A stretch of 44,572 nt of DNA, from the IMG/VR virus record IMGVR_UViG_3300022910_000008, positions 1-44,572 of that record, one strand, 5' to 3'. Origin of the DNA: a virus. Made by a program: the position numbers and the translations under genes. Each line of letters starts with the position of its first letter. Positions within the stretch are counted from its first letter, which is position 1. The notes beneath the pieces were generated by a model that saw only the letters and a list, made by a program, of their open reading frames with translations, was not told the origin of the DNA and did no database searches. Positions 7,230 through 40,677 of this stretch are shown in pieces.

Positions 7230-7239
7230 AAAAATCCAC

Positions 7240-8323: not shown

Positions 8324-9481
8324 TTATTGACGACCTCTAATCTGCGTCGGCATCATCAAAAACGTGACGTTCGGATCGCCCACAGGCTTGAATACTACAG
8401 GAGCTAGAGGTACGTTGCCCTGTAGTTCAATCTCATCCGACTGCGCCGTCCTTAATATATCGAGAAGATACTTGATATTAAACCCGTAGGTTATATCTCC
8501 TCCAGTGACTTGAGCCTCGATAAACTCTCGTCCTTGCCCGATGTCTTGGGTTTCGGTCGAAACGACAATTCCTTGATCACCTTCTGATACGGCAAAGTGG
8601 CAGTGCAGCAACTTCCCTACTGCGAATACGCTGATGCGCTCAAGACAGGGAAGTAAAGCTTTTCTGTTAATCGTGATTTTCCGAGCAAAAGATTTGGGCA
8701 GCAGATCTGGGTAGTTGGGATAAGTACCGTCGAGCGTTCTGGCAACTATCGTGGTAGCACTTCCATTGCTACGGGTTCTCAACATTACCTGGTCTTTGGA
8801 AAAGTTCAGAACAACTGGTTCCGAATATTTGTGAAGCAATCTTTCAAACTCGCGCATGACGCGCAGCGGAATTGTCACTTCAAAAAGCTCAGCGCCTGCT
8901 TCTCTATCGTCATCTGAATCCTGTGGAGAGACAGAAGTCATAGAAAGTCGATGGCCGTCTGTCGCTGCAAACTCTAGACCGTTTTCGTCTACCTTCAAAT
9001 GTATTCCCGCTAAAACCTGTTTAGCTTCATCCGTAGAGGCGGCGAAAGCAGTATTTTTAATTCCTGCGGCGAGTCCTTCTGGATTGAACTCAATTTGCTG
9101 GAGCGGATCTTTTGCGACATCGGGAAGACTGGGGTACTCGTCAGGCTGCATAGTCCGGACTTCGTAACTTCCTGAGAGGCTTGTCAGGGTCAGCAGCATT
9201 TCAGACTCTTCAAAGACGAGTTCACCTTCAGGCAAGCGAGAAACTATGTCCATCAGCAGCTTTGCAGGCACGGCACAAGTTCCACCTTTCTCAACCGTTG
9301 CCGAAATGTTCGTACTAATACCTACTGCCAAATCGAACCCTGTAACGTTTACCGTACCTTGCGTCGCCTCTGCTTCGATTAAAAAGCAGACTAAAACCGG
9401 ATGTGTCGGTCTGCCAGAAATCGCTCTGTTCGCCGACGACAAAACTTCATTGAAAATCGATTGATTGATTGTAAATTTCAT
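8324..9481 (-). CDS. dnaN: DNA polymerase III beta sliding clamp
   Basis: A 385-aa protein beginning MKFTINQSIFNEVLSSANRA; the ATG at 9481 matches the normal DnaN N-terminus, so the longer frame is rejected. Three clamp domains are present: residues 1-120 (with VPAKLLMDIVSRLPEGELVF), 130-255 (FAASTDEAKQVLAGIHLKV, then FAATDGHRLSMTSV) and 265-385 (ending VTFLMMPTQIRGRQ). The TDGHRLS motif and the TYPNYPDLLP linker are diagnostic. The clamp encircles DNA and tethers the polymerase. A phage- or plasmid-encoded clamp suggests autonomous replication control. No other replisome gene lies beside it. Two distant relatives of the same fold lie at 35.5-39.7 kb. Confidence 0.95.
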   Translation of the reverse strand: MKFTINQSIFNEVLSSANRAISGRPTHPVLVCFLIEAEATQGTVNVTGFDLAVGISTNISATVEKGGTCAVPAKLLMDIVSRLPEGELVFEESEMLLTLTSLSGSYEVRTMQPDEYPSLPDVAKDPLQQIEFNPEGLAAGIKNTAFAASTDEAKQVLAGIHLKVDENGLEFAATDGHRLSMTSVSPQDSDDDREAGAELFEVTIPLRVMREFERLLHKYSEPVVLNFSKDQVMLRTRSNGSATTIVARTLDGTYPNYPDLLPKSFARKITINRKALLPCLERISVFAVGKLLHCHFAVSEGDQGIVVSTETQDIGQGREFIEAQVTGGDITYGFNIKYLLDILRTAQSDEIELQGNVPLAPVVFKPVGDPNVTFLMMPTQIRGRQ

Positions 9482-9498: not shown

Positions 9499-9539
9499 CG
9501 ATTATTTGACAATAGCATACACAAGGTTGACAAGCAAAG

Positions 9540-9572
9540 AAAACCCGCAACACACTATATGTTACGGGTTTT
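9540..9572 (-). terminator. Terminator after the 374-aa gene
   Basis: An AAACCCG / CGGGTTT stem extended by AAC/GTT pairs is followed on the minus strand by a T-rich tract. It lies between the stop at 9575 and the dnaN promoter region. Confidence 0.7.
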
Positions 9573-23400: not shown

Positions 23401-26400
23401 ATTTTCCGATCTAGCCAAGATTTCTTGAAATCTCTTGAATTCGCCAGCATTAGCAAAACCCATTTTGGTTGCCATATCAGCGAATTTAGTTTCGGGAATT
23501 TCGGTTTGAAACTTTCCAGTCTGCAAAAACGAATTAAACACTTTTGTTTGATCCGCATCTAGTCGCGCCATAAATGCTTGACGGCTTAAATTGACTTCAT
23601 TGAGCTGCGCCATAACTCCCGCTTCTCTCTTGGCTGTAGCTACTGCGCGGCGAGCTTCCCTCTGTGCGAAACCTTCAGCTTGTCTGGCAACTCTGCGGTC
23701 TATTTCGGTGCGGAGGTCGTCAATTTGTCTGTTATAAAGTTTGGCTTCGTTGTTAATCCCAATTATTTTTAGTAGTTGAGTTTTCCAACTTTCTTTGGCA
23801 CCGCTCAATATTGATTCGGTAGACAAAGATTGCTCTACTTGATCGATATTCGCGAAGCCTAGCGATCGGGCTAAGCTAGCTTCGTGATTGACGTAGGTGT
23901 CTCGGAATTTTTGTTGACCAGTAGCGTCATCAATGTACGCTTCTTGTTGCGTACTGCGCTGCCTCAAAGCACCTCCTCTAAAGTTACCTTGCTTTAATTG
24001 AAGTAAGATAGCCGCTTGTTCTTCTCTATTAAACTTGCTCAACCAAGCCTTGAATTCTTTGTTTTCAACGTTCCTAATATCGAAAAGCTTAGCTCTTGTG
24101 GTTCGCGCCTGTTCGAGTTGACTGTTTAACCGAGCAACTGGCATCAACGGATGCGAGATTTCGTAAACATCTCGCTTCAATATGTCGGCAATTTTGCGAA
24201 TAACTTTCTGTTGCGCTTCTGAAGTTAGTTCCCCAGATCGCAAGCTAGCCTGATAATTCGCAAGTCGCGCCCGCTGCTTATCTTGCTCTGCTTGAGTACC
24301 TGTTAAGTTTGCACCCGCGATTTTTCGCTCGATACCTCGAATAGCAGCAACAGAAAGACCTTCTTGATTGCCTGGTAGTTTTTTGGTTGCGTTGACGATC
24401 GCCTGCCGAATTCCGCTAATCGTATCGCCCAGAATTCCTTTTAACCCTTGAGAAATCCTGTCAGGCGCATCGGTTTGAGACTCTAGTTGAGCTTCGAGAT
24501 CGGTAAAATATTTAGGATCAATTTCAGTGGCATTCCTAACTTGCCTTAGCTGGTAATCCATCATCTGCTCGACAATGGCTTTTAATTTTCGATTATAATC
24601 TTGTGGATTAGCTGATTCTTTCAACTGATCTATAACTTTTCTATGATCAAAATTCTCTAATGCAGAAAAGCCGCTGTTCTTGAGATTTCCTATTTTTGTA
24701 TTGAGACTAGCTTCTAGTGCTGCTGTATTAGCACCGCTCATGGCGGTTCTGTCATCTGGTGTATGCCTCAGTAGGCTATGTAATTCAGTCGTACCGGCAA
24801 CCCCTTTAGCTTTAGAGTTGTCTATTTTGCCCGTACCTGCTGCAAGCTGAAACTGCATCAGTTTGCGAACCATTTTTTGTGCGCTGTCGCTAAGAGTATT
24901 AAATTCTTCATAACTCCTAGTTAAATTTTTGTCGTCAATACCAGAACCTGCGGCAGCTTCATGAAGCTGCTTGAAGCTGAGATTGTCAGCAGTAAAACTA
25001 TTGCGATTTCGATCCAAGCCTTGAACATTTAGTCTTTCAAGAAACTCTCGACTGTACTGAATTTGTCCTGCATTTTTCTTGTCTTCAACGCCGCCATTCA
25101 TCTTGGCTACGTTCATCACGGCGACATTCTGGGTTTTGATAGTTTCCAAAGCCCGTCCTAACTCAGCAAGGTCGGGTCTGTCTTTTTCAACGATCGCCCG
25201 GAGTTGATCGCCCGCCATCAATCCCAAGCGTGCTGGTGAAACACCTTTGGCAATTCCTTTCATTGACTGATCTCCAAAGACTCCAACTTTTGCATTGAGA
25301 TCTTCAGCCATGCGCTTCTTCTGGTACTCTTCACCAGCACCAGTCAACTGCCATTCTTTTGTGGTTCGCGCACCGATGCCGAAGAAGCCTCCTTTTTTAA
25401 CTTCAACCTCTTGCGCCATGTGACCGTAATCTGTCTTTTGCTGCTGAGCCAAAGTTACGATCTGAGCCTGCGATCGTTCCATGACTTTTTGACGGAACAT
25501 TGCAGATTCTTTGGCAAGCTTGAACTCGTCTTCCCGCGCAGCTTTTGCTTGCGGATCTTTGTAAAGTCCCAGTGTTGATCGCGTCTTGTGAACGCCTTCT
25601 AAAACCCGCCCTTCCGTACCGATGCCCATCACAGCGTTCGGGATTGCTTTAGCCGATCGCACAACAGCAATCAAACTGTTAGCAATTCCTTTAACGACAT
25701 CCCACACCAGCATGAAACCACCAAAGATGTGCTTCTTGACTGCAAAACCGAGCAAAAAGATACCGCCGAGGACAATCGGAATGACGCGGATTAGTTTTTC
25801 AACAAAGAAGGCGATCCAGTCGGTATTTATTCCGCCAGAAAAAGTCTTAGAAATGTTAGACAAAGTATTTTGCAGCCACTGCATCGGATGGTTGAGCGCA
25901 TCAATCATTGCGTTGAGTTCTTTGAATCCATCCGCCACTTGTATTGCCAAAAATAACGCAGCCCCCAAACCTGCGACGAGCGGTAAACTCACTGTCCCTG
26001 ACATCAGTGACAGCAGCCATCTAAAACCGATACCAACAAAATGTACTCGTTGGTTAATGGTTGCTAAAACCCAAATAAGACTAGCAAATACAGCAAAAAC
26101 GCCAGCTCCAAACGCCCGCATCTGATTTAAACTCGTTAAAGCAATGCCCATTCCCCTCGAAACGTTACGACCGACTGTTATTAAAGACTGATCTAATATG
26201 TAAAAAATCCCCAAAGTAGCTGCAACCAGCAATTTAAATCCAGCTTGTATGCCCTGAACAATCCCCTGAACGATCGCCAGCCCGATCGCGTAAGCCTTCC
26301 TAGCGACATAGGGAATTACCTGAGATATCAAGAAAGGAATTGCATCCTGGACAATCCGTCGAGCTACGCCTGCAAGTCCGATTATTCCCGCAGTCATGAC

Positions 26401-29400
26401 GCGACCTATTTTGAAAAACCCAAACCCAATAGCGGCTTGAATGATCGTAGGAATTAAACGACCGATTGCCCGAAAAGCGCCAAGAGCGTCACCTTTTAAT
26501 ATTGCAGAGCCGAGATCTATAAGGACGTTGATGATTGACATGAACTCTGCTGCTATTTGCTGAGTGACATATTTGACAGCAATCAGAATTCCTTGCATCA
26601 CTTTACTGACTGCAACGACGGGCAACAACATCACAGCGGTCAGAGCCTGTACACCTAAAGTTGCACCCTTAACGATCAGTCCAATTCCGTAGGCAATAAT
26701 TCCAGCAGTTTTTCCGGCGATCGGAGCGAGAATTTGAAATGCTTGAAAAAATCCAACAGAGAAAGCAGCAACGGCATTGACGCTATCTACTAATAAAAAA
26801 CGCAAAACTCGAATTACATTGGTGAATGCAAAAATAACGTTAGCGAATACACCTAGCTCTTTGTGCGTCCTGGCAAAAGCATCGATATTGCCCAAAAGCG
26901 CTGGTTTGATCGCGTCCAATACCGTGTAATACGTCATCCAAGCAAAAGCTGCGCGAGCCAACAACTGTATTACCGACGGAGCTACAGCTCTAAACAGAAT
27001 AAAGCCTTCGTTAATTGGACCGAGGGTAAACGAGCGATCGTATCCTTTGGCTACGCGCATAGCTGCAACACCGCCCAAATATGCCTCTCTAACCTCTTTT
27101 AATTTTTTACCTAAGATACTGATTGGGAAAGTTTCTTTAACTACATTTCCTACTGCACCGCCGACGCTGCCCGATACCGCAGCTATCTGGGGACCAACTT
27201 CTTTCGCTGAAGCTTGATAGGTTTTATACAGTTCAAACATTCCATTTCTAATCCAGCGCGACGCGCCCATCGCATCTTTCCGCGCATCTCCTTCTAGACC
27301 TTTGAAAAAGCCTAATTTATCTTGAATGCCTACAATTGCGTCGTCCAACCAAGCAACCCCTACGTCTATTGGGTTAACGCCTTTGGTGACACCTTGCATC
27401 CCCTTTGTTTGTACGTAAAGTTTATTGAATCCACCGCTAGCAAAAAATCCGATCGCCTGTATTAAAGGTGCAAAAGCTTCATTTACTATGTAACGAGCAC
27501 CCGCCGCCAAGCTTGCGCCCAGAGCCGCGAATACGGGCAGCAATCCCCGAAGCGCAGTACCGAGAATATTGAGTTCGGTTCGTACCATTGCGAAGTATCC
27601 GGGCAATGCCTCCCTCGCTAATCCGAGTAAATTGTTAATTCCGCCGATCGCCGACTCAAATACATTGGCAACAAAATTCCCAATCATTGGAATCCGGCGC
27701 AACAGGTTGAGCAGTTGAGTTACACCGACAGAAATCAAGCCGGGAATGAGTTTTGCCTGTTCGATAATGAACGTTTTTATCGGAGTTATCAAGCTTCCTT
27801 TAATTGCAGTTCCGCCCGCAGTTGCAGCATTTTTAACGGCGACCGCAATCATTGCAAACGGCAGTCCGACAAAAGCTGTGGCGATCGTGCGACCGAGGTT
27901 CAAAAACACGCCCCCGACTGCAACGACAGCATTGAACAAAGGACCTGTCAAGAAACCGACAAATCCTGCAAGCGTAGGACTTCTAAGGACATCAATGAAA
28001 GCGCTAGCTGCCGCTTCAATTACTACGAATTCCCCAATCGGCATCCCCAGCAAAGGCAAACTGTGAATGAAATCGGTAATAGGTTGCAACGCCTCGCCGA
28101 ATCCCATGTAGTCGGCAAAAAGTTGGGGAACTGTTAAAACCTTCATTGACGCGATCGCCTCGAAGATCGGCTTGATAAAATTACCGACGCGATCTGCCGA
28201 ACTGGCTAAGTCTTGCCAGAAAGTTGCCAGCATCCCACCGACTTCACCGAGCATGGCATTTACGTCGTCGCGCATCGGACCGGCGGGAAAAATGTTGTTA
28301 ACTACTCCCGACAGCAGTTCAGGCAAACGGTTCGACCAATCGATCAGTGTCGCAGTCCAGTTTTCTGTCAACTTGCCAAAGATATCGAGTCCCATCAACA
28401 CTGCTGTGATTCCCGGCAAACCTTTAGCAAGAGCTGTTCCTATTCCTGGGCGATCGAATACTTTGAGGAAATTGACGTACTTGCTAGCTCCTTCTTCCAG
28501 AAGTTTTTCGTTGCCGAGTCCAAAGAACGACGTAATCCAACTAACGCCTAAGCCGACCAACGGCAATTTTTTAAGTGCTTCAAACGGTACTGTGACCAGA
28601 TTCATCAGCATTGAGGAGGTCATCAACGCAGCAAAACCGAGTAAGTTGAAGTTTTCAATCGCTCTATGGAAAAAACTTTCCTCTATTCCCATAAAAGTTT
28701 TACTCAGCGAACCCAATCCCTTGACGAGTTCAAACAAGGCCGCGCCCACACCAACCGCAACTTGAATTCCTGTGGCTCCTTCTGTCGCGAATCGGTTGAA
28801 CGCATTGGTGACGTTTTGCACGGTATTTCCGGCGATCGTCCCAACTTTGTCTAAAAATGCAAGTGTCCCCGCACCGAGGTTTGTTTCGATCGCCCCTCGA
28901 ACTCTTGCCAAGCCCTGTTCCGCAACATCTCCCATTCGATCCCATATTTGCTGCCAGATCGTCTGGCTTTCTTCGGCTTGAACTGTTGCTTGCCCTGCAA
29001 TCTGGGCAATCGGATCTGACTGCTGCGGTTGCGTTGCAGGTGGAAATATCTTGGGGACAATTTCGGGCGATCGGGGTTGCGTTATTTTATCGAAGCCGTC
29101 AGAAACGATATCGGGCAAACCCCAAGCAAGCAGCGGTTTCATCGCTGCCATACCAGCAAAAGCCAAACCGCCAAAATCAGGCGTTGTGGACGCAAACACG
29201 TCAACAAAATTGATCCAGCCGCTCGCCATCATCCCAAAGGTGTTGCTCCAAACGCTCCCAATTTCTGTAGCGAAATTGGTGAGGGTGTCGGGCAAGGTTA
29301 ATCCAGCAAAGAAAGCCGTAACTTTCTCGACAGTTGTTTGCCAAGTCGCTGCAACCCAGGTCGCGGCAGCACTCATAGCTTCTTGGATTTTTAAGCCGGC

Positions 29401-31989
29401 GATTGCTGACGAAATTTGCATCAACACAAAGCTACCGGCAACTTGAGCGGCGGTGAAAGCCCAGTTAACTCGCGTCATCAAAGAAGGTCCGGGAGACGCC
29501 TCTGATAGAGAACCCTGGATGAAGTGACCGATGTACGCCGCAAGGTCTGCCAGCGGTTTTAGTAATCCTGCAATAAATGAGATTGTCCTGTCCCAAGCCC
29601 CAGCAGTTGCACTGGCAGCAAAGATGAAGGGACTTGCCAAAATATTGAAGATGCTTTCACCAATATGCTTACCCGATCGCTCCCAATTTTTAAAGCTTTC
29701 CATCGCAAATTCCAAAGCTTGGGCGATCGCGGTAAACGGTGAAGAAAGCAGTCCGCCGGCGGCTCCGACAGGGACTTTCAACAGCTTGAGAAATGCACTG
29801 ACAAACCCTTCAAGAATCCCGAACGCAAAACCGACCGCGGAACTGAACACGCTAAACAGAGTTCCGAGCAGTCGCACTTGGGGATTCGCCCGCTGGAGCA
29901 ACTGGTCTAACAACAAGAACGATCCGATCGCCAATCCCAGCGGTGACAGCAAAAATGCTCGTCCCATACTCAGAGCTGCTTGGCTCGTCATCATGACTTG
30001 AGTACGCAATGCGATAAAAGCAGTCCGAAGTTCACCAGCTACCATGCCTTTTGCAAGACCGGCAGCATCCGTGAACTCATCAGCCATGACAGTTGACTGT
30101 TTGAATATACCCGCCCAAGGGTTCGTCCCCTTAAATCCTGTCATCGCCGTCTCGAAGAAGCCGGTCAGCGGAATCAGACTGTGCTGCATCCCGATCGCTG
30201 CCGTCGTGGCGATCGCCTGCGCTTGCTGAAATCCGAACAATGCAGTGCCGGCGGCTCCGGCAGCTACAGCAAAAGTTCCCAGCCCAAACACCAATGCAGT
30301 CAACACCTTAGTCAACCCAGGAGCAGCTTGAGTAAGCTGCAAAAGTACACCGATCAGATCGGCAGCTAAGGACTTAAATGGCGTAATTACTTGTACGAGA
30401 GCAACACCTAAAGTATCTCTAAGAGCTTTTAAGGAAGTATCGAATCTTTGCGACTGGAAAGCAGCGGTTCTCAGTACATTTTCAATTTCTTCATCTACTG
30501 ACAAAGTTTTTAAATCTTTCCCTAAACTTAATATCTGTTTTCCGGTTTTAGGATCTGTAAGTTCTAGGATTTCTTTGCCCATGAACCCACCCTTGGCGAC
30601 AACACTTGCGCTCTTCAATACTTCAAGTTGGTTTGCCAACCCTTGCAACAACTTCTGATCTTGCACAGAACCAACCCCAAGAGAAGCAAAAAAAGCGCCT
30701 TGTTTCAGTTCACCACCTTGGACATTTTTGTAAGCTTCTGCAACCCTCGTAACGACTCCTAATTTGTCGGTATTGAGTTCTTTTTCAAAATCTTCAACGC
30801 TCATATTCAGAGCGCCAGCAAAGGCTGTCGTGTTTTCAGACATCTTCGCACTCATGCGGTTGAAAAACGACCCTGCCGCTTCCGGCTCAATTGTTCCGAG
30901 CGAGGCGATCGCCGCAGAATATGCAGCAATCTGATCTACAGGGAAGTTCGCAGCGTCACCCACTGTATTCATAACGACGTTCATCACCGGGATAACGTCT
31001 TCTGCTGAAATCCGCACGTCAGTCAATTTGTCAGCAAGCTGGTTGACACTGGAAGCAACCCTAGCATTTAGCTCGACGATCGCGTTCGGATCTTTGGATA
31101 CTAAATTTTTATAAATCGATCCTAATGTTACGTCTAATTGAGTTGCAACACCGCTAGAAATATCTAATGCTTGTTGATTTTTTAATATTTGTTCGACTTC
31201 TGCAATACGGGAGCCGACACCGCCCATCTCGTCACTGAATTTCTTTCCCGAACCAGCTAAATCTTCAAATATTTCGCTAACTTTAGTATCTTCTACACCT
31301 AATTTTGAGGATAGATTGAAGACCTGATTTTGCAGCAACTCACCGCCACTAGCGGTCAGATCGTTCGCCAATTTCTTGATTCCCGCCATACTCTTCTGCA
31401 ATTCCATCGCAGATTCCAGAGGCTCGGAAAAGACATCGACCACTCCCTGTCCGGCACTACCGATCGCCTGCGAAAATCCCAATCGCTCCGCCGCCATCGA
31501 AGCATCGCGGTTCGCTTTTGCCATCTTCACTTTGTCGCCAGCCATCCGCTGCTGCGACTGCAAGCTCGCCTTGAATTCTCGGTCTGCTGGACTTTCGCCC
31601 GATATTTGATTTTCCAGTTCCTTGAGTTTCCTGATGTAGGCGCTGATTTCACCCGATGCTTTCTTGAACTGCGTCGTGTCCGTCATCTCACCGAAATCGA
31701 TATTCCGAGACTCCGCCCGCAGAGCTCTGAATTCAGATTTCAAAGGACTCAGCGCATTCCCGATTTGCTTGACGGCACCTTGAATTTCCTTTCCTTCTCG
31801 CTGCACCGCACCGGCGTTGAGCGACTTCGCCAAGTCTTTCCCGATACTCGTGCTGGCGATCGCCTGTGCCGTTTCCTTGGTCGCTTTTTCTATTCCTTCC
31901 AACAGCTCAATCACCCGATCCATTTGCGCGAACGAGTTGCTGGAGGCAGCAAATTTAAAATTTGACTCTAAACCGTACTGGTCGGACAT
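17485..31989 (-). CDS. Giant tail tape-measure protein
   Basis: A 4,834-aa uninterrupted protein. Residues 1-160 are charged helices, and 190-480 match the TP901-type tape-measure core (LANDLTASGG, GVEDTKVSEIFEDLAGSG, FPVDQIAAYSAAIASLG). Residues about 540-2,120 are rich in hydrophobic, membrane-like helices; about 2,125-3,000 are hydrophilic and charged; the rest is mixed. Near 4,703 the usual C-terminal phrase FASGGAVVGPGSGTADRIPA followed by LLSNGEFVV appears. A motif SE.SPGPS..TR.NW occurs twice (near residues 830 and 3,440). Tape-measure proteins set tail length at about 0.15 nm per residue, which here gives roughly 0.7 micrometres. The gene stands alone, far from the capsid operon, with no tail-tube or chaperone gene beside it. 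The start is ATG 31989, right after a hairpin and U-tract. Confidence 0.93.
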   Translation of the reverse strand: MSDQYGLESNFKFAASSNSFAQMDRVIELLEGIEKATKETAQAIASTSIGKDLAKSLNAGAVQREGKEIQGAVKQIGNALSPLKSEFRALRAESRNIDFGEMTDTTQFKKASGEISAYIRKLKELENQISGESPADREFKASLQSQQRMAGDKVKMAKANRDASMAAERLGFSQAIGSAGQGVVDVFSEPLESAMELQKSMAGIKKLANDLTASGGELLQNQVFNLSSKLGVEDTKVSEIFEDLAGSGKKFSDEMGGVGSRIAEVEQILKNQQALDISSGVATQLDVTLGSIYKNLVSKDPNAIVELNARVASSVNQLADKLTDVRISAEDVIPVMNVVMNTVGDAANFPVDQIAAYSAAIASLGTIEPEAAGSFFNRMSAKMSENTTAFAGALNMSVEDFEKELNTDKLGVVTRVAEAYKNVQGGELKQGAFFASLGVGSVQDQKLLQGLANQLEVLKSASVVAKGGFMGKEILELTDPKTGKQILSLGKDLKTLSVDEEIENVLRTAAFQSQRFDTSLKALRDTLGVALVQVITPFKSLAADLIGVLLQLTQAAPGLTKVLTALVFGLGTFAVAAGAAGTALFGFQQAQAIATTAAIGMQHSLIPLTGFFETAMTGFKGTNPWAGIFKQSTVMADEFTDAAGLAKGMVAGELRTAFIALRTQVMMTSQAALSMGRAFLLSPLGLAIGSFLLLDQLLQRANPQVRLLGTLFSVFSSAVGFAFGILEGFVSAFLKLLKVPVGAAGGLLSSPFTAIAQALEFAMESFKNWERSGKHIGESIFNILASPFIFAASATAGAWDRTISFIAGLLKPLADLAAYIGHFIQGSLSEASPGPSLMTRVNWAFTAAQVAGSFVLMQISSAIAGLKIQEAMSAAATWVAATWQTTVEKVTAFFAGLTLPDTLTNFATEIGSVWSNTFGMMASGWINFVDVFASTTPDFGGLAFAGMAAMKPLLAWGLPDIVSDGFDKITQPRSPEIVPKIFPPATQPQQSDPIAQIAGQATVQAEESQTIWQQIWDRMGDVAEQGLARVRGAIETNLGAGTLAFLDKVGTIAGNTVQNVTNAFNRFATEGATGIQVAVGVGAALFELVKGLGSLSKTFMGIEESFFHRAIENFNLLGFAALMTSSMLMNLVTVPFEALKKLPLVGLGVSWITSFFGLGNEKLLEEGASKYVNFLKVFDRPGIGTALAKGLPGITAVLMGLDIFGKLTENWTATLIDWSNRLPELLSGVVNNIFPAGPMRDDVNAMLGEVGGMLATFWQDLASSADRVGNFIKPIFEAIASMKVLTVPQLFADYMGFGEALQPITDFIHSLPLLGMPIGEFVVIEAAASAFIDVLRSPTLAGFVGFLTGPLFNAVVAVGGVFLNLGRTIATAFVGLPFAMIAVAVKNAATAGGTAIKGSLITPIKTFIIEQAKLIPGLISVGVTQLLNLLRRIPMIGNFVANVFESAIGGINNLLGLAREALPGYFAMVRTELNILGTALRGLLPVFAALGASLAAGARYIVNEAFAPLIQAIGFFASGGFNKLYVQTKGMQGVTKGVNPIDVGVAWLDDAIVGIQDKLGFFKGLEGDARKDAMGASRWIRNGMFELYKTYQASAKEVGPQIAAVSGSVGGAVGNVVKETFPISILGKKLKEVREAYLGGVAAMRVAKGYDRSFTLGPINEGFILFRAVAPSVIQLLARAAFAWMTYYTVLDAIKPALLGNIDAFARTHKELGVFANVIFAFTNVIRVLRFLLVDSVNAVAAFSVGFFQAFQILAPIAGKTAGIIAYGIGLIVKGATLGVQALTAVMLLPVVAVSKVMQGILIAVKYVTQQIAAEFMSIINVLIDLGSAILKGDALGAFRAIGRLIPTIIQAAIGFGFFKIGRVMTAGIIGLAGVARRIVQDAIPFLISQVIPYVARKAYAIGLAIVQGIVQGIQAGFKLLVAATLGIFYILDQSLITVGRNVSRGMGIALTSLNQMRAFGAGVFAVFASLIWVLATINQRVHFVGIGFRWLLSLMSGTVSLPLVAGLGAALFLAIQVADGFKELNAMIDALNHPMQWLQNTLSNISKTFSGGINTDWIAFFVEKLIRVIPIVLGGIFLLGFAVKKHIFGGFMLVWDVVKGIANSLIAVVRSAKAIPNAVMGIGTEGRVLEGVHKTRSTLGLYKDPQAKAAREDEFKLAKESAMFRQKVMERSQAQIVTLAQQQKTDYGHMAQEVEVKKGGFFGIGARTTKEWQLTGAGEEYQKKRMAEDLNAKVGVFGDQSMKGIAKGVSPARLGLMAGDQLRAIVEKDRPDLAELGRALETIKTQNVAVMNVAKMNGGVEDKKNAGQIQYSREFLERLNVQGLDRNRNSFTADNLSFKQLHEAAAGSGIDDKNLTRSYEEFNTLSDSAQKMVRKLMQFQLAAGTGKIDNSKAKGVAGTTELHSLLRHTPDDRTAMSGANTAALEASLNTKIGNLKNSGFSALENFDHRKVIDQLKESANPQDYNRKLKAIVEQMMDYQLRQVRNATEIDPKYFTDLEAQLESQTDAPDRISQGLKGILGDTISGIRQAIVNATKKLPGNQEGLSVAAIRGIERKIAGANLTGTQAEQDKQRARLANYQASLRSGELTSEAQQKVIRKIADILKRDVYEISHPLMPVARLNSQLEQARTTRAKLFDIRNVENKEFKAWLSKFNREEQAAILLQLKQGNFRGGALRQRSTQQEAYIDDATGQQKFRDTYVNHEASLARSLGFANIDQVEQSLSTESILSGAKESWKTQLLKIIGINNEAKLYNRQIDDLRTEIDRRVARQAEGFAQREARRAVATAKREAGVMAQLNEVNLSRQAFMARLDADQTKVFNSFLQTGKFQTEIPETKFADMATKMGFANAGEFKRFQEILARSENQEMAQYFKNAMRHTGEFTTGSALETVEHGGEAVLKVDRLAQIVAQAKGHQPGDQRAERRASDMIDALAGQVDRDKANASDTALWDDINDFINTGRNATELTNEQIAAIGRQMQLQGSNEQVAAQLRSIANQRSTGFGMITNSIKRFLKNIETDAGTLEEYIHNRLTDMSSFSVLGVRPLATISDVLRNVLFEPMVSLVKGTWKWLGNAMNNLGANATLMKNRSMRALAKMPGVRQFAEARKRREADSQNSLQSLSAKMGYSNQEAFAESFRQQLATRGITEGHVQNRALQAVLNSRRSAGVGESLRTSRFQEVSSNSDQIGQALAATLGIDRGTDIVKLLNPGGFTTSALAPLRNYLIKAVIPAIVDVGMAPLKMIWKIVRNPGVSLAALKTKTGQIADAVADFLVSSYTTIRRVFSSAATQLGKVPLFRNIWGAVTGFFGKIASKIQGMAAPATTQRLRNLQNQRQIAARGSALTSARAGEIEPDQIARVAGAREESTTGVIGQLNARIATLSQARSQQISATLNPFQKLLVFATTAARGAKNAWAQTAQEISEGGWRGLIARFKRFGYLMKRNISEGSPGPSADTRANWEHTQQSVGQNMGEIAQSAHVAGQQIQGDMQRTARRSAGFLGALGGAVAGAGKAGMAVGGAITAIGFAAQTASYSLVNMGLLDESSAAGLNKFLEIFTLVGAVGGLMAPVMGAIVSSVTAIGSAFALIFNPVTLTMAAITGGILLANEGLKRFAGIDLLGPLFANVQEPIQGTIAFIQGKIDEVFLWMTDKFGTQLSPILEPMTAAVNTIQGAWQGFVNWFVAMPLVQTAIDIGTGLINALNHNPTVQIPLAWEGAVEQIKGMLFNLPFVGDLIASLLKDSLDPGKILGNLFQGFQSMLDQFENSGLARFGGGKLLDGLRGFLGGFGKKSEIKTEIPVEAGVKLNYKEALEAAVRQADFDARSGSARSQEASASLQYQLKTTGGQMDASQLGAAYQGPGGKFLQKAIAKENNRLFLEQGAAAKQKREGLQEDIQNLNRQEVDLQSKYTEAIAKVQEAAAAPAPIKFFQDLTGRGAAKFAAEAATVSRTMISLEEQRTDLQKQAAAASTTFDVGTDQMLKNMGIDPAGLKVAVAESKAAIAAGIKEVGLAVSDRWRYLERSNGGNLGYMMATDLQKAGGAFRILKGDVADFAQKAATSLMKMDWEGFKSAAGDFWGNVTFGLGQMSSGFVGAGLSAALFLIHLSPIAFIMAGVALAALAIATNFLGLRTVLMGMWKVFTGFAQVATSSVMMVINVIRGLVTIAGGVSDAVRGDFTKIGEGAEIVWNGIKEGARGLLRGLGSIFGGGLEVLEGLFQGLKQTISIVFGPALLNSAREAVASIEQLFRSAGETIASSLKKPGQVLENIANRFRKGKEQVADSPIGRTVGAIADVATGKAPNMDAARVAHDFDMKMRGKDPDAQLTAADRARLAQSQMEGVVNQAFNTSRGLGADLVRPTNNQGVLSEIDNELRRAEAGLGSMKNRSVSAADAANDALSSLGIALSSFAPALAAPIFMVGDLLSGFTGLSMALPQLGAMFPGVAGAIGTFTTAVTTGTLTVSGAIAGFGTLFAGVMTAISSAASTAWVAISGPMFPIFILVGALAAGFLLFKANFLGFADIVSGVFDGVKDVFSGIWDTVTDGIRDVGSLIGRIGGYLIEPIAPLLQLFGVDVGNAGAQLQTAFVHQAVTALLLPIRAIGLVIRGIVWSVFAVTKSLLWLGGLVVRVVLTPITLVSNAVAAIVRGFQTLGSILATVLLAPFQFLQNVVNWIWGKLTQLPAFLTQALASVPLIGPLLQNLGNTIFQSGAQTPVQQFASGGAVVGPGSGTADRIPALLSNGEFVVSAKPAQENMGLLTAMNEGRSVEVMPMPAPTRIPLTLAGSGEAVQADSAPKQMPPVEININLQGDIVLAGTNSASDAQEFLTKIEPYLQQAVWGYFRNWVDFSR

Positions 31990-32388: not shown

Positions 32389-33243
32389 ATGAGTATCATA
32401 TCTCACAATTTCAAAGGCAAAGCGATCGAGCAAGCTAGTTCGGCAACACATATCAACAGCACGACGATTCCAAAGGGTTACGTGAACCTCAGTCAAATGT
32501 GCAAGGCTGGTGGTAAGCGACTGGTAGATTATCTACAAAAAGATAAGAAAAGATTATCTTTTTTCGAGAGTGTCGCGAAAATAATAGCAGCCGAAACCCA
32601 TAACCCGTCAGAGGTGAGTATAATCACCTCTGACAACCACAACGTTTCAGGTGCTTGTTTAGTTTTTGGACTCGAATCAGGTTTACTTATAGAAACCAGC
32701 AATGCCATTGGTGGGAAAGGTGATATTTACGGGCATCCGCAAATCGCTATTTCCGCAGCAACATGGATCAGTTCCGAATTTGAAGCGTGGGCAGGTTATA
32801 CCTTGCTACTGGTTGTACGCGGTGATTTTCAAGCACTAACGGAAGAAGCGAAGCAAGCACAAACGAAACTTGACGAGACTTGGGACAAGCTGAGGGCTAC
32901 AGGGATAGTTACAAGACGAACACTGACAGATGCAATAAAGCTTTGGTACAGTCTTTACGAAGCAACAACTACCTGTCCTGAACACGTCATTTACGCGCAA
33001 TGCACCAACCATATCTACCAAGCTCTCTGGGGAGTTAATGCTACAGATATTCGCGAATATTTTGGTCTTAAACCAGGGAACATCCCTCCAACACGCGACT
33101 ACTTGTCAGAGCAAGCTCTTTTAGCTATTGAGAGAGCGGAAGATCGGGTAATCGAAGCAATGGAATTTGATGATGCAATACCCCACAAAAACGCAGTAGT
33201 CGTAGCTCGGATACGCCCAGCAAGAATTAGTTTTAAAGACTAA
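32389..33243 (+). CDS. KilA-N domain protein 1
   Basis: A 284-aa protein. The N-terminal HNFKGKAIEQ and PKGYVNLSQMCKAGGKRLVD fit the KilA-N domain (residues about 1-130), with FGLESGLLIETSNAIGGKGD and a segment WISSEFEAWAGYTLLLVVRG close to KilA-N ends (W.sp.f..WV...i). The C-terminal half is helical (RATGIVTRRTLTDAIKLWY). KilA-N proteins bind DNA and are common in large phages, where many act as antirepressors. It aligns along its whole length with the second copy at 39829-40677. Followed by its own terminator. Confidence 0.85.
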   Translation: MSIISHNFKGKAIEQASSATHINSTTIPKGYVNLSQMCKAGGKRLVDYLQKDKKRLSFFESVAKIIAAETHNPSEVSIITSDNHNVSGACLVFGLESGLLIETSNAIGGKGDIYGHPQIAISAATWISSEFEAWAGYTLLLVVRGDFQALTEEAKQAQTKLDETWDKLRATGIVTRRTLTDAIKLWYSLYEATTTCPEHVIYAQCTNHIYQALWGVNATDIREYFGLKPGNIPPTRDYLSEQALLAIERAEDRVIEAMEFDDAIPHKNAVVVARIRPARISFKD

Positions 33244-33919: not shown

Positions 33920-35098
33920 ATGTCATTTCAAGTAAGAAAACCATTAAACAGCAAAAAGAAAGTCGAAACAAAAAAAGTATTATCTGTTCCCACAGAGGAT
34001 ACCGAAATTGTTTTGACAGAAACTGTAGAATCACCTGAGATCGAACCGATCGCCCACTGGATCAAATTTGACGCATTAAAAGGCGTCCAAGCTGAACGCG
34101 AATTCTACACGGTTCAGTTAAAAATCAGTGAACTCTCAGGACTGTTGACTTTTTCAGAAAAGGACGTTCCACAGCCTGAGCGAATTCAGCGCGAAGTTAA
34201 AGGACCAAAAGTCAAAAAACTATCGGCTTACGTTTTGGCTAACAGAGCTTCTTACATCTTGCCCGCAGTCACTATCGTGATTGAAGGTGAATTTGATTTC
34301 TTTGAAGTTGGAGGTCGCTACGGCGAGCTATGTCTGAGAGAAGGAACAAAACTGTTTCCTTTAGATGGACAGCACCGACTGCTAGGACTTAACCTTGCCT
34401 TGCGAGAAAATCCTACGCTAGGAGACGAGTACATAACGGCTACGATTTATCGAATAGAAGGTACGATCGCCCGCCGCCAAGCTTTTCGAGATATCAATGA
34501 AGAGCAGACGAAGGTTTCAAGCGGTTTATCAAAATCGATGGATCACCGCAATCCGGGGACGCACCTCGTGTCCCACATCATCGCTCAAGATCATGACGAG
34601 CGCATTCCCGTGTTTTCGCAAGACTGCATAGAATACGGAAAACCGTCAATCACCGGGAAGAGTGAAAAAATCTTCCCGTACAAAACATTGCAAGAGGCGA
34701 TCGAGCTTTCTCGCAAGCACATCAAAAACAGCCCGATAGACGATCAAAAGCGGTTGGTACGCCAGTATTGGCTTGCCATTTCCAAAGTCATGAAAGACTG
34801 GGAACAAGACCCAGTTGTCGTCAGAAGGGAAACGATCGCCACGCACTCAATTACAGTCAAGGCGATCGGCAAACTAGGGAGTGCGTTCATGCCCACAACG
34901 GAACCGTTAGGCGAAGGCAAAATTGCAATTCTGCAAGGTCTGTCCCTAATCGACTGGTCGAAAGCTAATGCTGATTGGCTGGCGATCGGCGTACTCACCC
35001 CTCAAGGGAAAGTAATAACTTCCAACGCTGACGAGCGCATCTTTGATTACCTCGTCGAGAAGCTGGAGTTGCTAGTCACTAAGCCTAAGACTAAATAA
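33920..35098 (+). CDS. DGQHR-domain (DndB-like) protein, orphan
   Basis: A 392-aa protein with LFPLDGQHRLLGLNLALREN near residue 150, the signature of the DGQHR/DndB superfamily. It is followed by IARRQAFRDINEEQTKVSSG and SKSMDHRNPGTHLVSHII, which are also typical. Dnd relatives regulate phosphorothioate modification genes; other members occur as orphans in phages and plasmids. No dnd or BREX genes are in the window. The first 45 residues are a low-complexity Lys/Glu/Thr stretch. It is a single gene with its own promoter and terminator. The exact role is unknown. Confidence 0.85.
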   Translation: MSFQVRKPLNSKKKVETKKVLSVPTEDTEIVLTETVESPEIEPIAHWIKFDALKGVQAEREFYTVQLKISELSGLLTFSEKDVPQPERIQREVKGPKVKKLSAYVLANRASYILPAVTIVIEGEFDFFEVGGRYGELCLREGTKLFPLDGQHRLLGLNLALRENPTLGDEYITATIYRIEGTIARRQAFRDINEEQTKVSSGLSKSMDHRNPGTHLVSHIIAQDHDERIPVFSQDCIEYGKPSITGKSEKIFPYKTLQEAIELSRKHIKNSPIDDQKRLVRQYWLAISKVMKDWEQDPVVVRRETIATHSITVKAIGKLGSAFMPTTEPLGEGKIAILQGLSLIDWSKANADWLAIGVLTPQGKVITSNADERIFDYLVEKLELLVTKPKTK

Positions 35099-35519: not shown

Positions 35520-37490
35520 TTAGAATCTAGTTACGCCTCCAACAACGAAAGGATCGTTTATTTTTTGTGGAGGGACATCACTTAAGTCCTCATTACATTC
35601 CGAACAAGGAAGCGAAGGTGCTTCGATCGCGGGAATATAAAAAGATTCATCCGTTATAGACCCGCACTCGAAACACGAGTACATCGGAGAGCTTGTCAGT
35701 TCTACGTCAAAACGTTCGCAGCACGGGCATCCAACAAAGACAATTTCGTCTTCGGTTTCTTGCAGATATTTGAAGTCTTCTTCGTCGCAGATATCGTCTA
35801 CGAAAAAAGTGGACTCGCAGGCACCGCAGCGCCACATTGACTCATCCTCTTCTAGGATTGCGTCACAGGGACAAGCTTTGCAGTTTTTGACCTCTACAGG
35901 TCTTTCGCATTCACAGCACTCTAAATAGTGTGCGGTCGTGAATTCTTTTTTCTCGCAGTTCATACAGACTGGCTCCGAAATCGGAAGACCAACTGTAGAC
36001 TTGTTCAACGTGTGGCACGTCGGATTTGTACAGCGATAGTCAACGCCGTGTAAAGCGAGTTCGCGGTAATCTTCACAGAAACCGCAGTAGCCCCGCAATC
36101 TTTTGATTTGCGGCTGCAAAATTGAGTCGTCGTGAACAACTCCGCAGTCGCATTCGACAAGCTCAGGTCGTTCCCAACCTTTACCCGTCCAGCGATCGCT
36201 GAGAATCTTGACTACTGGTTTCGCAGTAGTCGAGGCTGGCTTGCTTTCTGGAAGTATTGACCACCCTTGAGCGATCAACCAGTCGCAGACGCCCGGAGGT
36301 GTTTGCAAACCTGCTTTTTTTCGTCCGGCAATGAGATAAGAATTTTTATCAAACTCTAGATACGCTACATTTCGGACATCTTTGCCGCTGTTAAAGAAAT
36401 CTTCAGCTTCGTCTTCTGCGACCAATTTAGGTAGCATGAATCGAACCTGACTGGTTCCTTTCTTAACAGTCTTGAGTACGTCCAACAGCAACTTGCTGTT
36501 GGTAATAATTAATGCAGGCGGTACTTTTAAGGTGTTTTTCACCCATGAAGTGCCAACACTGCTTCCTTCAAAACATTCGATCGCCAACCGATCTTCAACT
36601 GTGTACAACCACAGCCAAACATCTTTGCCGAGCTTATTCAAGCGAGTTTTTAGCTCGCTAGCATTGACCACCAAAGTTGTGTGGCCACTCTTATTTCCCC
36701 ATTTTTGAAAATCAGGGAACCATGACATCAGGGGGCGAGATGCGAATATTTCGACAGTATCGTCAAGAGTTATCTTGACGAAATTTTGATAGACCTCCCA
36801 ATTGGCAACCTGAAAAGCAAACTTTCCGATCGCCGCACCCAGCTCAGAACTGACAACGAGGTCAATATCTTTATCGAGTGTTTTTTGGGTGTACACATAT
36901 TTTTGAAATATGCGATTTCCGTCTGTAGCAGAGACTAGAATCTCGTCTTCTTTACAAGACAAGAATAAGTTATCTAGCTGCGGATTAGACACCCTTTGTA
37001 ATATTTTTGTGGCATCAGTCAAAATCGAAGCGATTTCTCTGCCTGTAGCAAAGGAAACTACTTTTTCTTCGGTAACGTCGTAATCACGCTTGTGTAAATA
37101 TACACAATCGTTTAACTCGTATCGCATAGAATAAAGCGATTCTTCGGCCTTAGCTCGTGGCTTCAATTTTTCACCGTATCCACCAGTAATAATCAACCCT
37201 GGTGGAACAAATTCCAACTTAACCTCTTCCAATAAAATAGGAAGATTTCTCACTATCCTGCTGAATAAATCTATTGGTAAAACAACGGATTTGTCGGCAA
37301 TCTGAGATCTATTTTTAATAGTCCGAGATTCAATATCAACACTTATTTGACCATCCATCCCAAACAAAACCTGGCATGATAACTGCCCGCCTTTTGAAAG
37401 AGTTAACTTTACAAACGGGTTGTTACGATCGCCTATTTTGACAATTTGAGCAATTTTTTCTTTGAAGTGTTTCAAATTAATAAAAGTCAT
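35520..37490 (-). CDS. Beta-clamp-like protein with C-terminal zinc-ribbon array
   Basis: A 656-aa protein. Residues 1-390 follow the three-domain order of DnaN: VVLPIDLFSRIVRNLP (67-82) matches CAVPAKLLMDIVSRLP of the true DnaN at 8.3-9.5 kb. LDNLFLSCKEDEILVSATDG (172-191) matches the VLAGIHLKV...FAATDG segment, and VVSSELGAAIGKFAF and FPDFQKWGNKSGHTTLVV match its linker and third domain. Residues about 445-635 hold many Cys pairs (ECDCG, YCGFC, RCTNPTC, VCMNC, ECCEC, RCGAC, GCPCC, SCFEC, PCSEC), a row of probable zinc ribbons. I know of no described clamp with such a tail. It is divergent from the next gene. A role in replication or transcription is inference. Confidence 0.75.
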   Translation of the reverse strand: MTFINLKHFKEKIAQIVKIGDRNNPFVKLTLSKGGQLSCQVLFGMDGQISVDIESRTIKNRSQIADKSVVLPIDLFSRIVRNLPILLEEVKLEFVPPGLIITGGYGEKLKPRAKAEESLYSMRYELNDCVYLHKRDYDVTEEKVVSFATGREIASILTDATKILQRVSNPQLDNLFLSCKEDEILVSATDGNRIFQKYVYTQKTLDKDIDLVVSSELGAAIGKFAFQVANWEVYQNFVKITLDDTVEIFASRPLMSWFPDFQKWGNKSGHTTLVVNASELKTRLNKLGKDVWLWLYTVEDRLAIECFEGSSVGTSWVKNTLKVPPALIITNSKLLLDVLKTVKKGTSQVRFMLPKLVAEDEAEDFFNSGKDVRNVAYLEFDKNSYLIAGRKKAGLQTPPGVCDWLIAQGWSILPESKPASTTAKPVVKILSDRWTGKGWERPELVECDCGVVHDDSILQPQIKRLRGYCGFCEDYRELALHGVDYRCTNPTCHTLNKSTVGLPISEPVCMNCEKKEFTTAHYLECCECERPVEVKNCKACPCDAILEEDESMWRCGACESTFFVDDICDEEDFKYLQETEDEIVFVGCPCCERFDVELTSSPMYSCFECGSITDESFYIPAIEAPSLPCSECNEDLSDVPPQKINDPFVVGGVTRF

Positions 37491-37501
37491 GATTGAACCT
37501 T

Positions 37502-37566
37502 GAAAGACTACTTCATTATTATACTATATATAATGTATTTATAGTATAATAATGAAGTAGTCTTTC
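37502..37566. promoter_or_regulatory. Perfect 27-bp inverted repeat with back-to-back promoters
   Basis: Arms 37502-37528 and 37540-37566 are exact reverse complements, separated by 11 nt. Each arm contains TATAAT, 6 nt, then GTAGTC, pointing outward to the divergent genes starting at 37490 and 37578. No consensus -35 is seen; each -35 would fall in the opposite arm. Confidence 0.85.
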
Positions 37567-37577
37567 TCAATGTAAAT

Positions 37578-39716
37578 ATGAAAACTCAAAAGTTAGCCAA
37601 CGCAATAGCAAGCTTAGGAACCAATCTAGTCACCATTGACTGGGGTTGGAATTCAGTAGTTATTAGCGGTAAGAAACTAGCAGAGAAAGGTGAGTATACA
37701 ATCGCCTTACCTGCGATCGGGGCAACCCAAACACAGGTGTTTCAGATTACCGTGAATTTCCACGAGATACTGGCAGCACTAGAAAAACTAAATCCTTCCA
37801 ACTGTCCTTACTCGGAGGTAAAACTCCAAGTGATAGAAAAGAAAGAAAATGTTCAAAACGCACCAGTTCAGTTTTTGCAAATAGAGGAAAACCTCAGCGA
37901 AGATGACAGTGATGTAGAAGACGACGAATACAGCGGAAACTATGCCCGCGAATTTTACGAGATCAGAGCGATCGTGACTCAATTAGAACAATTCAAAGTG
38001 TTCTATCTCGATCGCCAGCAGTTACAAAGACTGGTTCAAAAAGACTGCCTTGAACAAGACGGATACGTGTTAAAAGCGACAAAAAAAATCGCAGAGGTAA
38101 CAACCAAAGTTACGAAAAAACACGGCACTGTTAAAGTGCTCAATATCCCTCAAGGAGATATTGAGTTAGCTTTATCCAAGGACTGGGAACTCTCGGTCTG
38201 CTTAATGGAGGGCGATCTCCTGCGTATCGTTCATCGAAACGGAGAATTGATAGCTTTTGACAAGAAAGTTCAAACTTCAATTCCTACGATCGCAACGATT
38301 AATTTCACTTCAGAAGAATGGAAAAAAATGAGATTTGCGACCAAAGTGGTTGCGAGTCTGCCTTGCAGATCGCAATCAGACCATGTCTTAACAGGCATCG
38401 AAGTCCATACCGGGTCTTATACCCGAATCAAAGGGTTTTCTGGGATTAGCGTTTATAGCGCTGAACTTGGAAGATCCGACAAGCCAGGAAGGTTCCTGGT
38501 TCCGCAAAGCGGAATCGATGAATTTTGTCGAATCCAATCAGATGACGACAAAGTAGTTTCTTTGTATTTCAAGGAAAACGGGGAATTTGTATTGACATCA
38601 GAAAGCGCCGCACTGCGCGGTGAATTGATGGATGTCAACGAGTATCCTAGCGATTGGCACGAACTGCCAATCAGTCGGGAAGTCCCCGCAGAATTCAATC
38701 GAGACGAATTCATAAAAGCCTTGTCAGAAACGACACGGTGGCTGAATTGGAGAAATCCAACTGACAACTACTGTCGAATCTGGTGGGAAGACAATGCCTT
38801 GACTTTTCAAGGTATCGACGGATTGGTTAAGCTGACCCCAAAAAACAAGGGTTACGACACCACACCGCATAAATGCTACGTGAGCGCCGTCGCACTCGCA
38901 GAGATTATCGAGCATCTCGATTCGAGATTTCGGATCGCCCTGCCGACAAGTGACACAGAAATGTGTCGCATCAGCGACGACAAAACCGAAGCTGGAATAT
39001 GCGTTCTCTATGAACCGCACTTTATCAGCTTCAGAAAAGAACAACAGGCACTACCGGACGCCCTCGTTCAGGAAGTGCTTGACACAAACGGTGCTTTCGA
39101 GTGCCGAGCGATCGAAGTTAATCCGATCGCCCAAGCCGAACCGATCCCCGAACCAGGGGCGATCGAGGAGGAAGCTGAGGAACTACTCGAACAAGTCGCA
39201 GAGTTTGTGCGATCGCACAGATCACACGAAACTTACAGCCTGTTTCCAGTGGATATGTGCCCAATTGCGGCGACAGTCCGCACAGCATATCGATTGGCAA
39301 CACCAGAAGGTTTTGCTGAAATCAAGAAACAATATAAATCAAGCCAGAGATTTGCAGATTTCGCCTATGGCGTAATCGATATAATCAAACAGCTCGATAA
39401 GTCTTCCGATAGTGTTCAAGAATTGCTATCTCAGGAAGAGATTGCAAAAGCAGGCATGGAGAACCTGCGTATCCAATGGCAGATAAGCCTCAATCGAGAA
39501 TATGCCAGAGGGTACAACGCAGCATTAAGAGATGTAAGCCACGAAGCAAAGCTTCAAGGCATTGAAGGCATCGAAGAAATTTGCGAAAAACTCCGATCCG
39601 AATTGCCGGATGATTTGCCTAAGCTGGGCGATCGTTTAACAGTTTGGGTCGGCAGAATGTTAACAGAAGAACAGAAGCTTGCTCCGATCACGCAAGTCGA
39701 ATTTAGACCCCAATAA
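37578..39716 (+). CDS. Second beta-clamp-like protein with helical C-terminus
   Basis: A 712-aa protein. Residues about 245-485 resemble DnaN domains 2 and 3: VVASLPCRSQSDHVLTGIEV (257-276) and IKGFSGISVYSAEL match the VLAGIHLKV..TDGHRLSMT region. FLVPQSGIDEFCRI, YPSDWHELP and FNRDEFIKALSETTRWL match the domain-3 entry (YPNYPDLLP, NRKALLPCLER). VSAVALAEIIEHLDS matches the last helix. Residues 1-240 are divergent and may hold domain 1 with a long acidic insert (SEDDSDVEDDEYS near 107). Residues 530-712 are helical and unassigned. The true TDG motif is altered (KGFSG), so polymerase-loading function is uncertain. Transcribed from one arm of the inverted repeat. Confidence 0.65.
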   Translation: MKTQKLANAIASLGTNLVTIDWGWNSVVISGKKLAEKGEYTIALPAIGATQTQVFQITVNFHEILAALEKLNPSNCPYSEVKLQVIEKKENVQNAPVQFLQIEENLSEDDSDVEDDEYSGNYAREFYEIRAIVTQLEQFKVFYLDRQQLQRLVQKDCLEQDGYVLKATKKIAEVTTKVTKKHGTVKVLNIPQGDIELALSKDWELSVCLMEGDLLRIVHRNGELIAFDKKVQTSIPTIATINFTSEEWKKMRFATKVVASLPCRSQSDHVLTGIEVHTGSYTRIKGFSGISVYSAELGRSDKPGRFLVPQSGIDEFCRIQSDDDKVVSLYFKENGEFVLTSESAALRGELMDVNEYPSDWHELPISREVPAEFNRDEFIKALSETTRWLNWRNPTDNYCRIWWEDNALTFQGIDGLVKLTPKNKGYDTTPHKCYVSAVALAEIIEHLDSRFRIALPTSDTEMCRISDDKTEAGICVLYEPHFISFRKEQQALPDALVQEVLDTNGAFECRAIEVNPIAQAEPIPEPGAIEEEAEELLEQVAEFVRSHRSHETYSLFPVDMCPIAATVRTAYRLATPEGFAEIKKQYKSSQRFADFAYGVIDIIKQLDKSSDSVQELLSQEEIAKAGMENLRIQWQISLNREYARGYNAALRDVSHEAKLQGIEGIEEICEKLRSELPDDLPKLGDRLTVWVGRMLTEEQKLAPITQVEFRPQ

Positions 39717-39828: not shown

Positions 39829-40677
39829 TTAATCTCTAAAATCAAATTTTGCAGGACGTATTCGAGCAATAGCAACTGCGTTCTCATGAGGGATGGCATT
39901 GTCATAGTCAATCGCTTCAATTACTCGATCTTCCGCTTTCTCGATCGCCATTAATGCGCGTTCCGACAAACAATCACGAGTTCTCTGGCTGTCACGAACC
40001 AATCCAAAATAGTTCCGAATATCCAGGGCGTCAACATTCCACAATGCTTGATAAATTTGATTCGTACAAATTGCATAAATAGAATGCTCAGATTGATTAG
40101 CTGTAGAGCCGTGTTGGTAATACCAACTCTGAATTGCATCAGTCAAGCTACGACGTGTTACAACTCCGGCAGCTCTAACTTTTTTCCAAATCTTTTCTAG
40201 TTCGAGCTGCGCTTGTTTAGCTTCCGCTGTCAAACCACTGAACTCACCACTAATAATAAGTCGCAAAACATGATTAGCCCATACAGCGAAATCGGCACTA
40301 ACCCACTGGGCAGCGTGTATCGCTATCTCCATATGACAGTAAATGTCACCATCACCACCACTCGCATCCTTAACTTGTATAAGCAAACCTGATTCAAGCC
40401 CTATTCGCAGCGACTCACTCAAAACCCTGTCACAGTACGACGCTCGGAAGTGAGCGCCGTACTGTATATACGTTTCAGAGATTGGGCTTCTGGACAAGGC
40501 TATAAGATAATTTAATGTTCCATCAAGCCTCCAGTAGTTTTTGAGCGTTTTCTTTCCAGCTCGCGATATCTGACTAAGGTTTACATATCCTTTTGGGACG
40601 ACAAGTTCACCAACGTTTGTGTCTGAACTTGTTTGCTCTATTGTTTCACCGTTGAAATTGTGAGGTATTATGGACAT
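39829..40677 (-). CDS. KilA-N domain protein 2
   Basis: A 282-aa paralog of the gene at 32389, starting MSIIPHNFNGETIEQTSS. It shares PKGYVNLSQ (residues about 28-36), IGLESGLLIQV, SADFAVWANHVLRLIISGEF, AAGVVTRRSLTDAIQSWYYQ and ICTNQIYQALWNVDALDIR. The two differ most in residues 45-85, the part expected to contact DNA, so they may have different targets. KilA-N proteins act as phage regulators or antirepressors. It faces the other copy, and both have structured leaders. Confidence 0.85.
   Translation of the reverse strand: MSIIPHNFNGETIEQTSSDTNVGELVVPKGYVNLSQISRAGKKTLKNYWRLDGTLNYLIALSRSPISETYIQYGAHFRASYCDRVLSESLRIGLESGLLIQVKDASGGDGDIYCHMEIAIHAAQWVSADFAVWANHVLRLIISGEFSGLTAEAKQAQLELEKIWKKVRAAGVVTRRSLTDAIQSWYYQHGSTANQSEHSIYAICTNQIYQALWNVDALDIRNYFGLVRDSQRTRDCLSERALMAIEKAEDRVIEAIDYDNAIPHENAVAIARIRPAKFDFRD

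Follow-up and report, generated by a model that had tools for sequence, protein, structure and literature searches.

We analysed the virus record IMGVR_UViG_3300022910_000008, 44,572 nt (44.6-kb) in length and called the window below, which carries a divergent pair of genes, P1 and P2, related to the bacterial sliding clamp DnaN. The window belongs to a tailed phage, as it encodes a major head protein, a head-tail adaptor and a tape-measure-like protein of 4834 aa. Both open reading frames (ORFs) lie where the initial annotation had placed them (Table 1), and a palindrome occupies the 87-bp gap between them. P1 and P2 show no detectable sequence similarity to each other, which rules out a recent duplication. 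Comparison of their sequences with those of a 188-kb sister record indicates that both genes are clearly under purifying selection (ratio of nonsynonymous to synonymous substitution rates, dN/dS, of 0.105 for P1 and 0.101 for P2; dS is near or beyond saturation and the ratios are rough).

Table 1. Positions of the gene pair, its parts, the intergenic palindrome, further genes and the sister records. Unlabelled positions refer to the window.
Feature	Position	Strand	Remarks
P1 gene, 656 aa	35520..37490	-	ORF; orthologs L002:5938-7911 (68% identity), L227:5199-7157 (66%)
P1 residues 1-400, predicted three-domain DnaN-type clamp body	36291..37490	-	Pfam, hhalign, AlphaFold2, Foldseek
P1 residues 447-632, acidic zinc-ribbon-like array of ten Cys pairs	35595..36152	-	22 Cys invariant in three orthologs
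Intergenic palindrome of the pair	37502..37566		two conserved 9-10 bp blocks per arm, 5-bp variable symmetric spacer
Palindrome in relatives	L002 7924-7989; L227 intergenic 7158-7244		
P2 gene, 712 aa	37578..39716	+	ORF; orthologs L002:8001-10118 (73%), L227:7245-9407 (71%)
P2 residues 1-240, putative clamp domain I with insert	37578..38297	+	predicted secondary structure order only; model of low confidence
P2 residues 88-137, acidic insert	37839..37988	+	variable (64% identity to L002); charge of -10 over a stretch of 26 residues
P2 residues 241-490, predicted clamp domains II and III	38298..39047	+	PF00712 33.6 bits; DnaN profile matches both; 81-87% identical in L002
P2 residues 491-712, acidic and probably helical tail	39048..39713	+	low-confidence secondary structure
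DndB/DGQHR-like gene	33920..35098	+	PF14072 189.6 bits; convergent neighbour of P1; beside the pair in 3/3 phages
Ordinary dnaN, canonical clamp of the same phage	8324..9481	-	385 aa from MKFTINQ; three Pfam clamp domains; TIGR00663 268 bits
Sister record 1	IMGVR_UViG_3300032431_000001, 188 kb		handle G001, contig label L002; carries the pair and an ordinary dnaN
Sister record 2	IMGVR_UViG_3300018890_000001, 200 kb		handle G396, contig label L227; carries the pair and an ordinary dnaN

Clamp domains, Cys-pair array and palindrome

The sequences that had been quoted as DnaN anchors are present in both proteins: VVLPIDLFSRIVRNLP and LFLSCKEDEILVSATDG in P1, and EYPSDWHELP in P2. The Pfam family DNA_pol3_beta (PF00712, cut-off 24.4 bits) matches P1 at 24.7 bits and also P2. 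We built a reference profile from 69 phage DnaN proteins gathered via a DNA pattern scan and compared it with each protein by hhalign, using 40 column-shuffled controls each. Residues 51-351 of P1 (query 1-420) align with DnaN 75-379 at E=3.5e-14, against a best shuffled control of 0.012. The match extends over three consecutive domains, as the pieces 1-140, 138-268 and 268-400 each find the profile on their own (E=2.7e-5, 6e-7 and 7e-4, respectively). For P2 (query 1-500), residues 269-477 align with DnaN 179-401 at E=3.6e-8, against a best shuffled control of 0.034, and the pieces 241-367 and 360-500 reach E=2e-4 and 5e-5. The initial annotation had assigned the DnaN domain order to both proteins. 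This is shown for P1 with all three domains and for P2 with the last two. The first 240 residues of P2 have no significant match to clamp domains with or without the acidic insert (best E ~0.04-0.08).

An AlphaFold2 model of P1 residues 1-420, calculated from an alignment of one ortholog and 56 DnaNs, contains three successive clamp-type repeats (predicted local distance difference test score, pLDDT, 72.9; predicted template modelling score, pTM, 0.69). The 50 best matches of this model in the PDB, found with Foldseek, are all DnaN clamps, with a best E=4.5e-22 and a target TM-score mostly of 0.71-0.81. Most of its viral matches that carry a name are DnaNs of phages. The clamp fold initially proposed for P1 was thereby recovered. 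Profile and model agree that P1 is a DnaN-type clamp body of three domains, and by sequence P2 is assigned clamp domains II and III, its most conserved part. The N-terminal 240 residues of P2 would correspond to clamp domain I, judging from the predicted order of secondary structure elements.

Both proteins differ from genuine DnaN. The equivalog model TIGR00663 has a cut-off of 137.65 bits. P1 scores 19.8 bits and its orthologs 22.5 and 23.1, and the P2 proteins have no match; being far below the cut-off, neither protein is to be called DnaN. The identity of P1 to DnaNs is 11-19%. The partner-binding cleft, for which we looked for TDGHRL and the C-terminal MPMR[L], is altered as well. In P1 the first motif is changed to TDGNRI, TNGHQI or TDGHQL and the MPMR motif is absent, and P2 lacks the TDGHR motif.

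The clamp body of P1 is followed by a linker and an array of Cys pairs. Some nine pairs had been reported; the zinc-ribbon-like character of the array stands and the number is ten (447/449, 469/472, 487/492, 509/512, 525/528, 537/540, 555/558, 588/591, 606/609 and 629/632), with C568 and C590 in addition. All 22 Cys past residue 440 are invariant among the three orthologs. A CxxC-14-CxxC spacing is found in 537/540 with 555/558 and in 588/591 with 606/609, with a weak likeness to ribosomal protein eL43 (E ~0.5). No Pfam zinc family is detected in P1. The linker and array together carry a net charge of -18 to -26 in the three orthologs. This acidity throughout disfavours a DNA-binding module and speaks for an array that binds a protein.

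The acidic insert initially described in P2 is present, and the tail is probably helical, as secondary structure prediction suggests at low confidence. Compared with the 188-kb sister, the middle part of the tail is 41% identical and the last 52 residues 73%. The tail has no family match.

The palindrome is the longest inverted repeat with near-complete complementarity in the window, and it lies, as first noted, between the divergent genes. Its arms pair perfectly (24/24 bp) in all three phages. Each arm contains the two invariant blocks AAAGACTAC and TATTATACTA, and AAAGACTAC has no other exact copy in the window. The 5-bp spacer varies in sequence among the phages and is symmetric in each, with 5/5 pairs compensated. 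This symmetry may result from selection or from palindrome template-switch correction. Read outward, each strand of the palindrome has a TATAAT. In the inward direction, each arm of the window's palindrome has a pair resembling TTGA[AG]A-TATACT. If the inward elements were the promoters, transcription of both genes would begin close to the centre and the two mRNAs would have nearly the same leader.

Relatives, host and neighbouring genes

The pair was found intact in two further phage records (~190-200 kb). Lack of co-occurrence would have counted against the initial annotation, as would lack of a clamp fold, and neither result was obtained. The divergent order of the pair and its DndB-like neighbour are the same in 3/3 records. 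Neither P1 without P2 nor P2 without P1 was seen in any collection searched. The window and the 188-kb sister are collinear over almost the entire window, so the phages with the pair look like one lineage. The co-occurrence is then probably vertical descent and gives no independent evidence of functional coupling. Three records is a lower bound, since the contig scans depend on exact matches to short peptides, so that their recall is low; earlier scans had overlooked the third record.

Searches by tblastn (E up to 0.1) found no relatives of P1 or P2 in annotated INPHARED phages and, with P2 only, none in PLSDB plasmids. A peptide scan with P2 found none in bacterial genomes. Among 391 Cyanobacteriales genomes searched with profiles, no relative was accepted; of four weak matches, three were histidine-kinase-like proteins and one lay in unrelated small ORFs, and all were dismissed as chance.

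The normal dnaN that had been noted in the window is confirmed, its TIGR00663 score lying well over the cut-off. The ORF spans 8324-9553 (-), with the likely true start, MKFTINQ, at 9481, and has a dN/dS of 0.054 against the 188-kb sister. PF00712 matches exactly three genes in the 200-kb sister, namely dnaN, P1 and P2. In the 188-kb sister it matches dnaN and P2; P1 was found there by tblastn and scores with TIGR00663 and PF02767.

The host is likely a cyanobacterium, because the window contains 24 copies of the HIP1 octamer GCGATCGC, a cyanobacterial signature, and a TnpB gene of a sister phage is most similar to genes of filamentous cyanobacteria. We found no DNA polymerase III (Pol III) alpha subunit, PolA, PolB, clamp-loader delta' or sigma-70 region 2 in the 188-kb record and no Pol III alpha in the 200-kb record, for neither of which completeness has been established. 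The phage therefore probably relies on host machinery, which a clamp of this kind could steer.

The DndB/DGQHR-like protein encoded beside the pair scores 177 bits in PADLOC, under the NCBIfam DndB equivalog cut-off, and the window proteins scanned gave no match to any other dnd gene. Two related KilA-N proteins (32389-33243 (+) and 39829-40677 (-)) bracket the DndB/P1/P2 group in the window. A link of the pair to a defence system was dropped: P1 has no PADLOC match, and the tail of one P2 ortholog gave only a weak match to BrxC (E=0.0095).

Other features of these phages stand apart from the pair. The tape-measure-like protein (17485-31989 (-)) has an identical length in the 188-kb sister (35650-50154). 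At the usual ~1.5 A of tail length per residue it would imply an extremely long tail of ~700 nm. The same sister has about 8 IS605-type TnpB genes among 46 large proteins scanned, an unusual mobile-element load for a phage. It additionally encodes a PAS/histidine-kinase protein, DNA methylases and a superfamily 2 helicase whose C-terminal domain is STICHEL/DnaA_N-like (L012:16988-18763 (+); PF23007, 35 bits).

Possible functions of the pair

Because the C-terminus of a beta clamp lies on its partner-binding face, beside the partner-binding cleft, the array of P1 and the tail of P2 would be placed where clamp loaders and polymerases normally dock, and could serve as built-in recruiters. The changed TDGHRL and lost MPMR of P1, together with the missing TDGHR of P2, suggest that these fixed, fused modules may replace an exchangeable cleft that is largely lost. 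Our best explanation, which is tentative and falls somewhat short of an even chance, is that P1 and P2 constitute a dedicated second sliding clamp with fused recruiters, separate from the ordinary DnaN. The two proteins would come together in a ring on DNA, possibly as a P1-P2 heterodimer, and the acidic array would contact a protein rather than DNA. As a guess, the most attractive partner is the host RNA polymerase, with late transcription coupled to replication as with T4 gp45; a polymerase or a repair protein would be other candidates. The complete scheme, a DnaN-type P1-P2 ring with a fused array that recruits RNA polymerase or another fixed partner and with one symmetric promoter element, is rather unlikely.

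In favour of a dedicated second clamp, the clamp homology is well over the shuffled controls, and both genes are conserved along with all 22 array Cys. Also in its favour are the match of the P1 model to DnaN crystal structures, the presence of dnaN, P1 and P2 as the clamp genes of both sisters, the low dN/dS, the compensated changes in the symmetric element, the altered cleft of P1, the probable use of host machinery, and the precedents of gp45 and of heterotrimeric clamps. Several observations weigh on the other side. The first domain of P2 has no sequence support, and an AlphaFold model of P2, based on two sequences only, has a pLDDT of 31. The 56 DnaN rows in the alignment used for P1 steer its fold, so that model is support and no independent proof. 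Charge complementarity, considered as a hint of a heterodimer, was dropped as inconsistent across the orthologs, in which the P1 body carries +4, -1 and -8. The phages with the pair look like a single lineage. Nothing direct points to RNA polymerase and no phage sigma factor was found; the polymerase and sigma genes not detected could lie in unassembled parts of the records.

The strongest alternative, unlikely but to be taken seriously, is that P1 and P2 are two independent accessory clamps, each a homodimer or paired with the phage or host DnaN, and that their divergent arrangement reflects shared timing only. Their separate jobs may be, for example, lesion bypass, repair or recombination-dependent replication. 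The canonical clamps of bacteria are homodimers, and P1 and P2, having no detectable similarity to each other, may have diverged from DnaN separately. However, the two genes are always adjacent, around one symmetric control element, in three records, and none of the collections searched has one gene without the other.

It is improbable that the clamp fold is kept without a clamp job, as a scaffold or DNA-binding platform for genome maturation, packaging or regulation that forms no ring. The low identity of P1 to DnaNs, the unrecognisable N-terminal region of P2 and the complete lack of its TDGHR motif would fit such a role. Yet all three domains of P1 are retained in their order, among them the terminal ones through which a ring would close, and domains II-III are the best conserved part of P2. 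Least probable is a host take-over, in which the two proteins as clamp mimics would tie up the clamp loader, polymerase or DnaN of the host and halt host replication, with array or tail as a blocking domain: a phage with its own dnaN and no detected polymerase must redirect host Pol III, and the clamp bodies are kept with an altered partner cleft, but a competitor should keep the partner-binding motifs, exactly those that are lost, and conservation over the whole length of 650-720 aa goes beyond the needs of a simple decoy.

A dedicated second clamp can be compared with three known systems. P1 shares with the beta clamp (DnaN; TIGR00663, PF00712/02767/02768) the three-domain fold and domain order, and its best structural matches are DnaN. 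The pair differs in its TIGR00663 score, far below the cut-off or absent, the lost C-terminal MPMR motif, C-terminal additions of 220-260 residues, the acidic insert of P2 and the coexistence of a true dnaN. Rad9, a subunit of the 9-1-1 clamp, bears a C-terminal tail. In 9-1-1 and Sulfolobus PCNA, which are known heterotrimeric clamps (PMC9690074), several diverged clamp subunits are likewise encoded per genome, and 9-1-1 exists beside an ordinary clamp. These are PCNA-type trimers of eukaryotes and archaea, whereas P1 and P2 are DnaN-type and their ring is hypothetical. T4 gp45 activates RNA polymerase via its C-terminal face (PMC7892883). The likeness to gp45 with gp33/gp55 is that of a phage clamp with its partners on the face bearing the C-terminus, and would extend to function if P1 and P2 recruit RNA polymerase. 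In contrast, gp45 itself serves as the replication clamp, and what it recruits are separate proteins, through short clamp-binding motifs. In P1 and P2 the modules are covalently fused, the window phage has a separate dnaN, and no sigma-like factor was found in the 188-kb sister.

Clamp-coupled late transcription and heteromeric clamps are thus already known, and what looks new is the specialised clamp form represented by P1 and P2. The combination of a DnaN-type clamp with a fused zinc-ribbon-like array and a second diverged DnaN-type protein, beside a dnaN, was not found in the libraries and literature searched, and the literature searches brought up no DnaN-type hetero-clamp. The complete scheme of a P1-P2 ring with a recruiting array, rather unlikely as stated above, would give bacteria and their viruses their first DnaN-type hetero-clamp.

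Bacterial-type sliding clamps are usually seen as one homodimeric protein that serves many partners. Here, genes for distinct clamp-fold subunits are adjacent in 3/3 records found, apparently of one lineage. If our explanation is correct, the bacterial clamp fold can specialise and possibly become heteromeric, as in 9-1-1 and Sulfolobus PCNA. If the array recruits RNA polymerase, the pair would represent a second, independent route to clamp-coupled late transcription of the T4 type.

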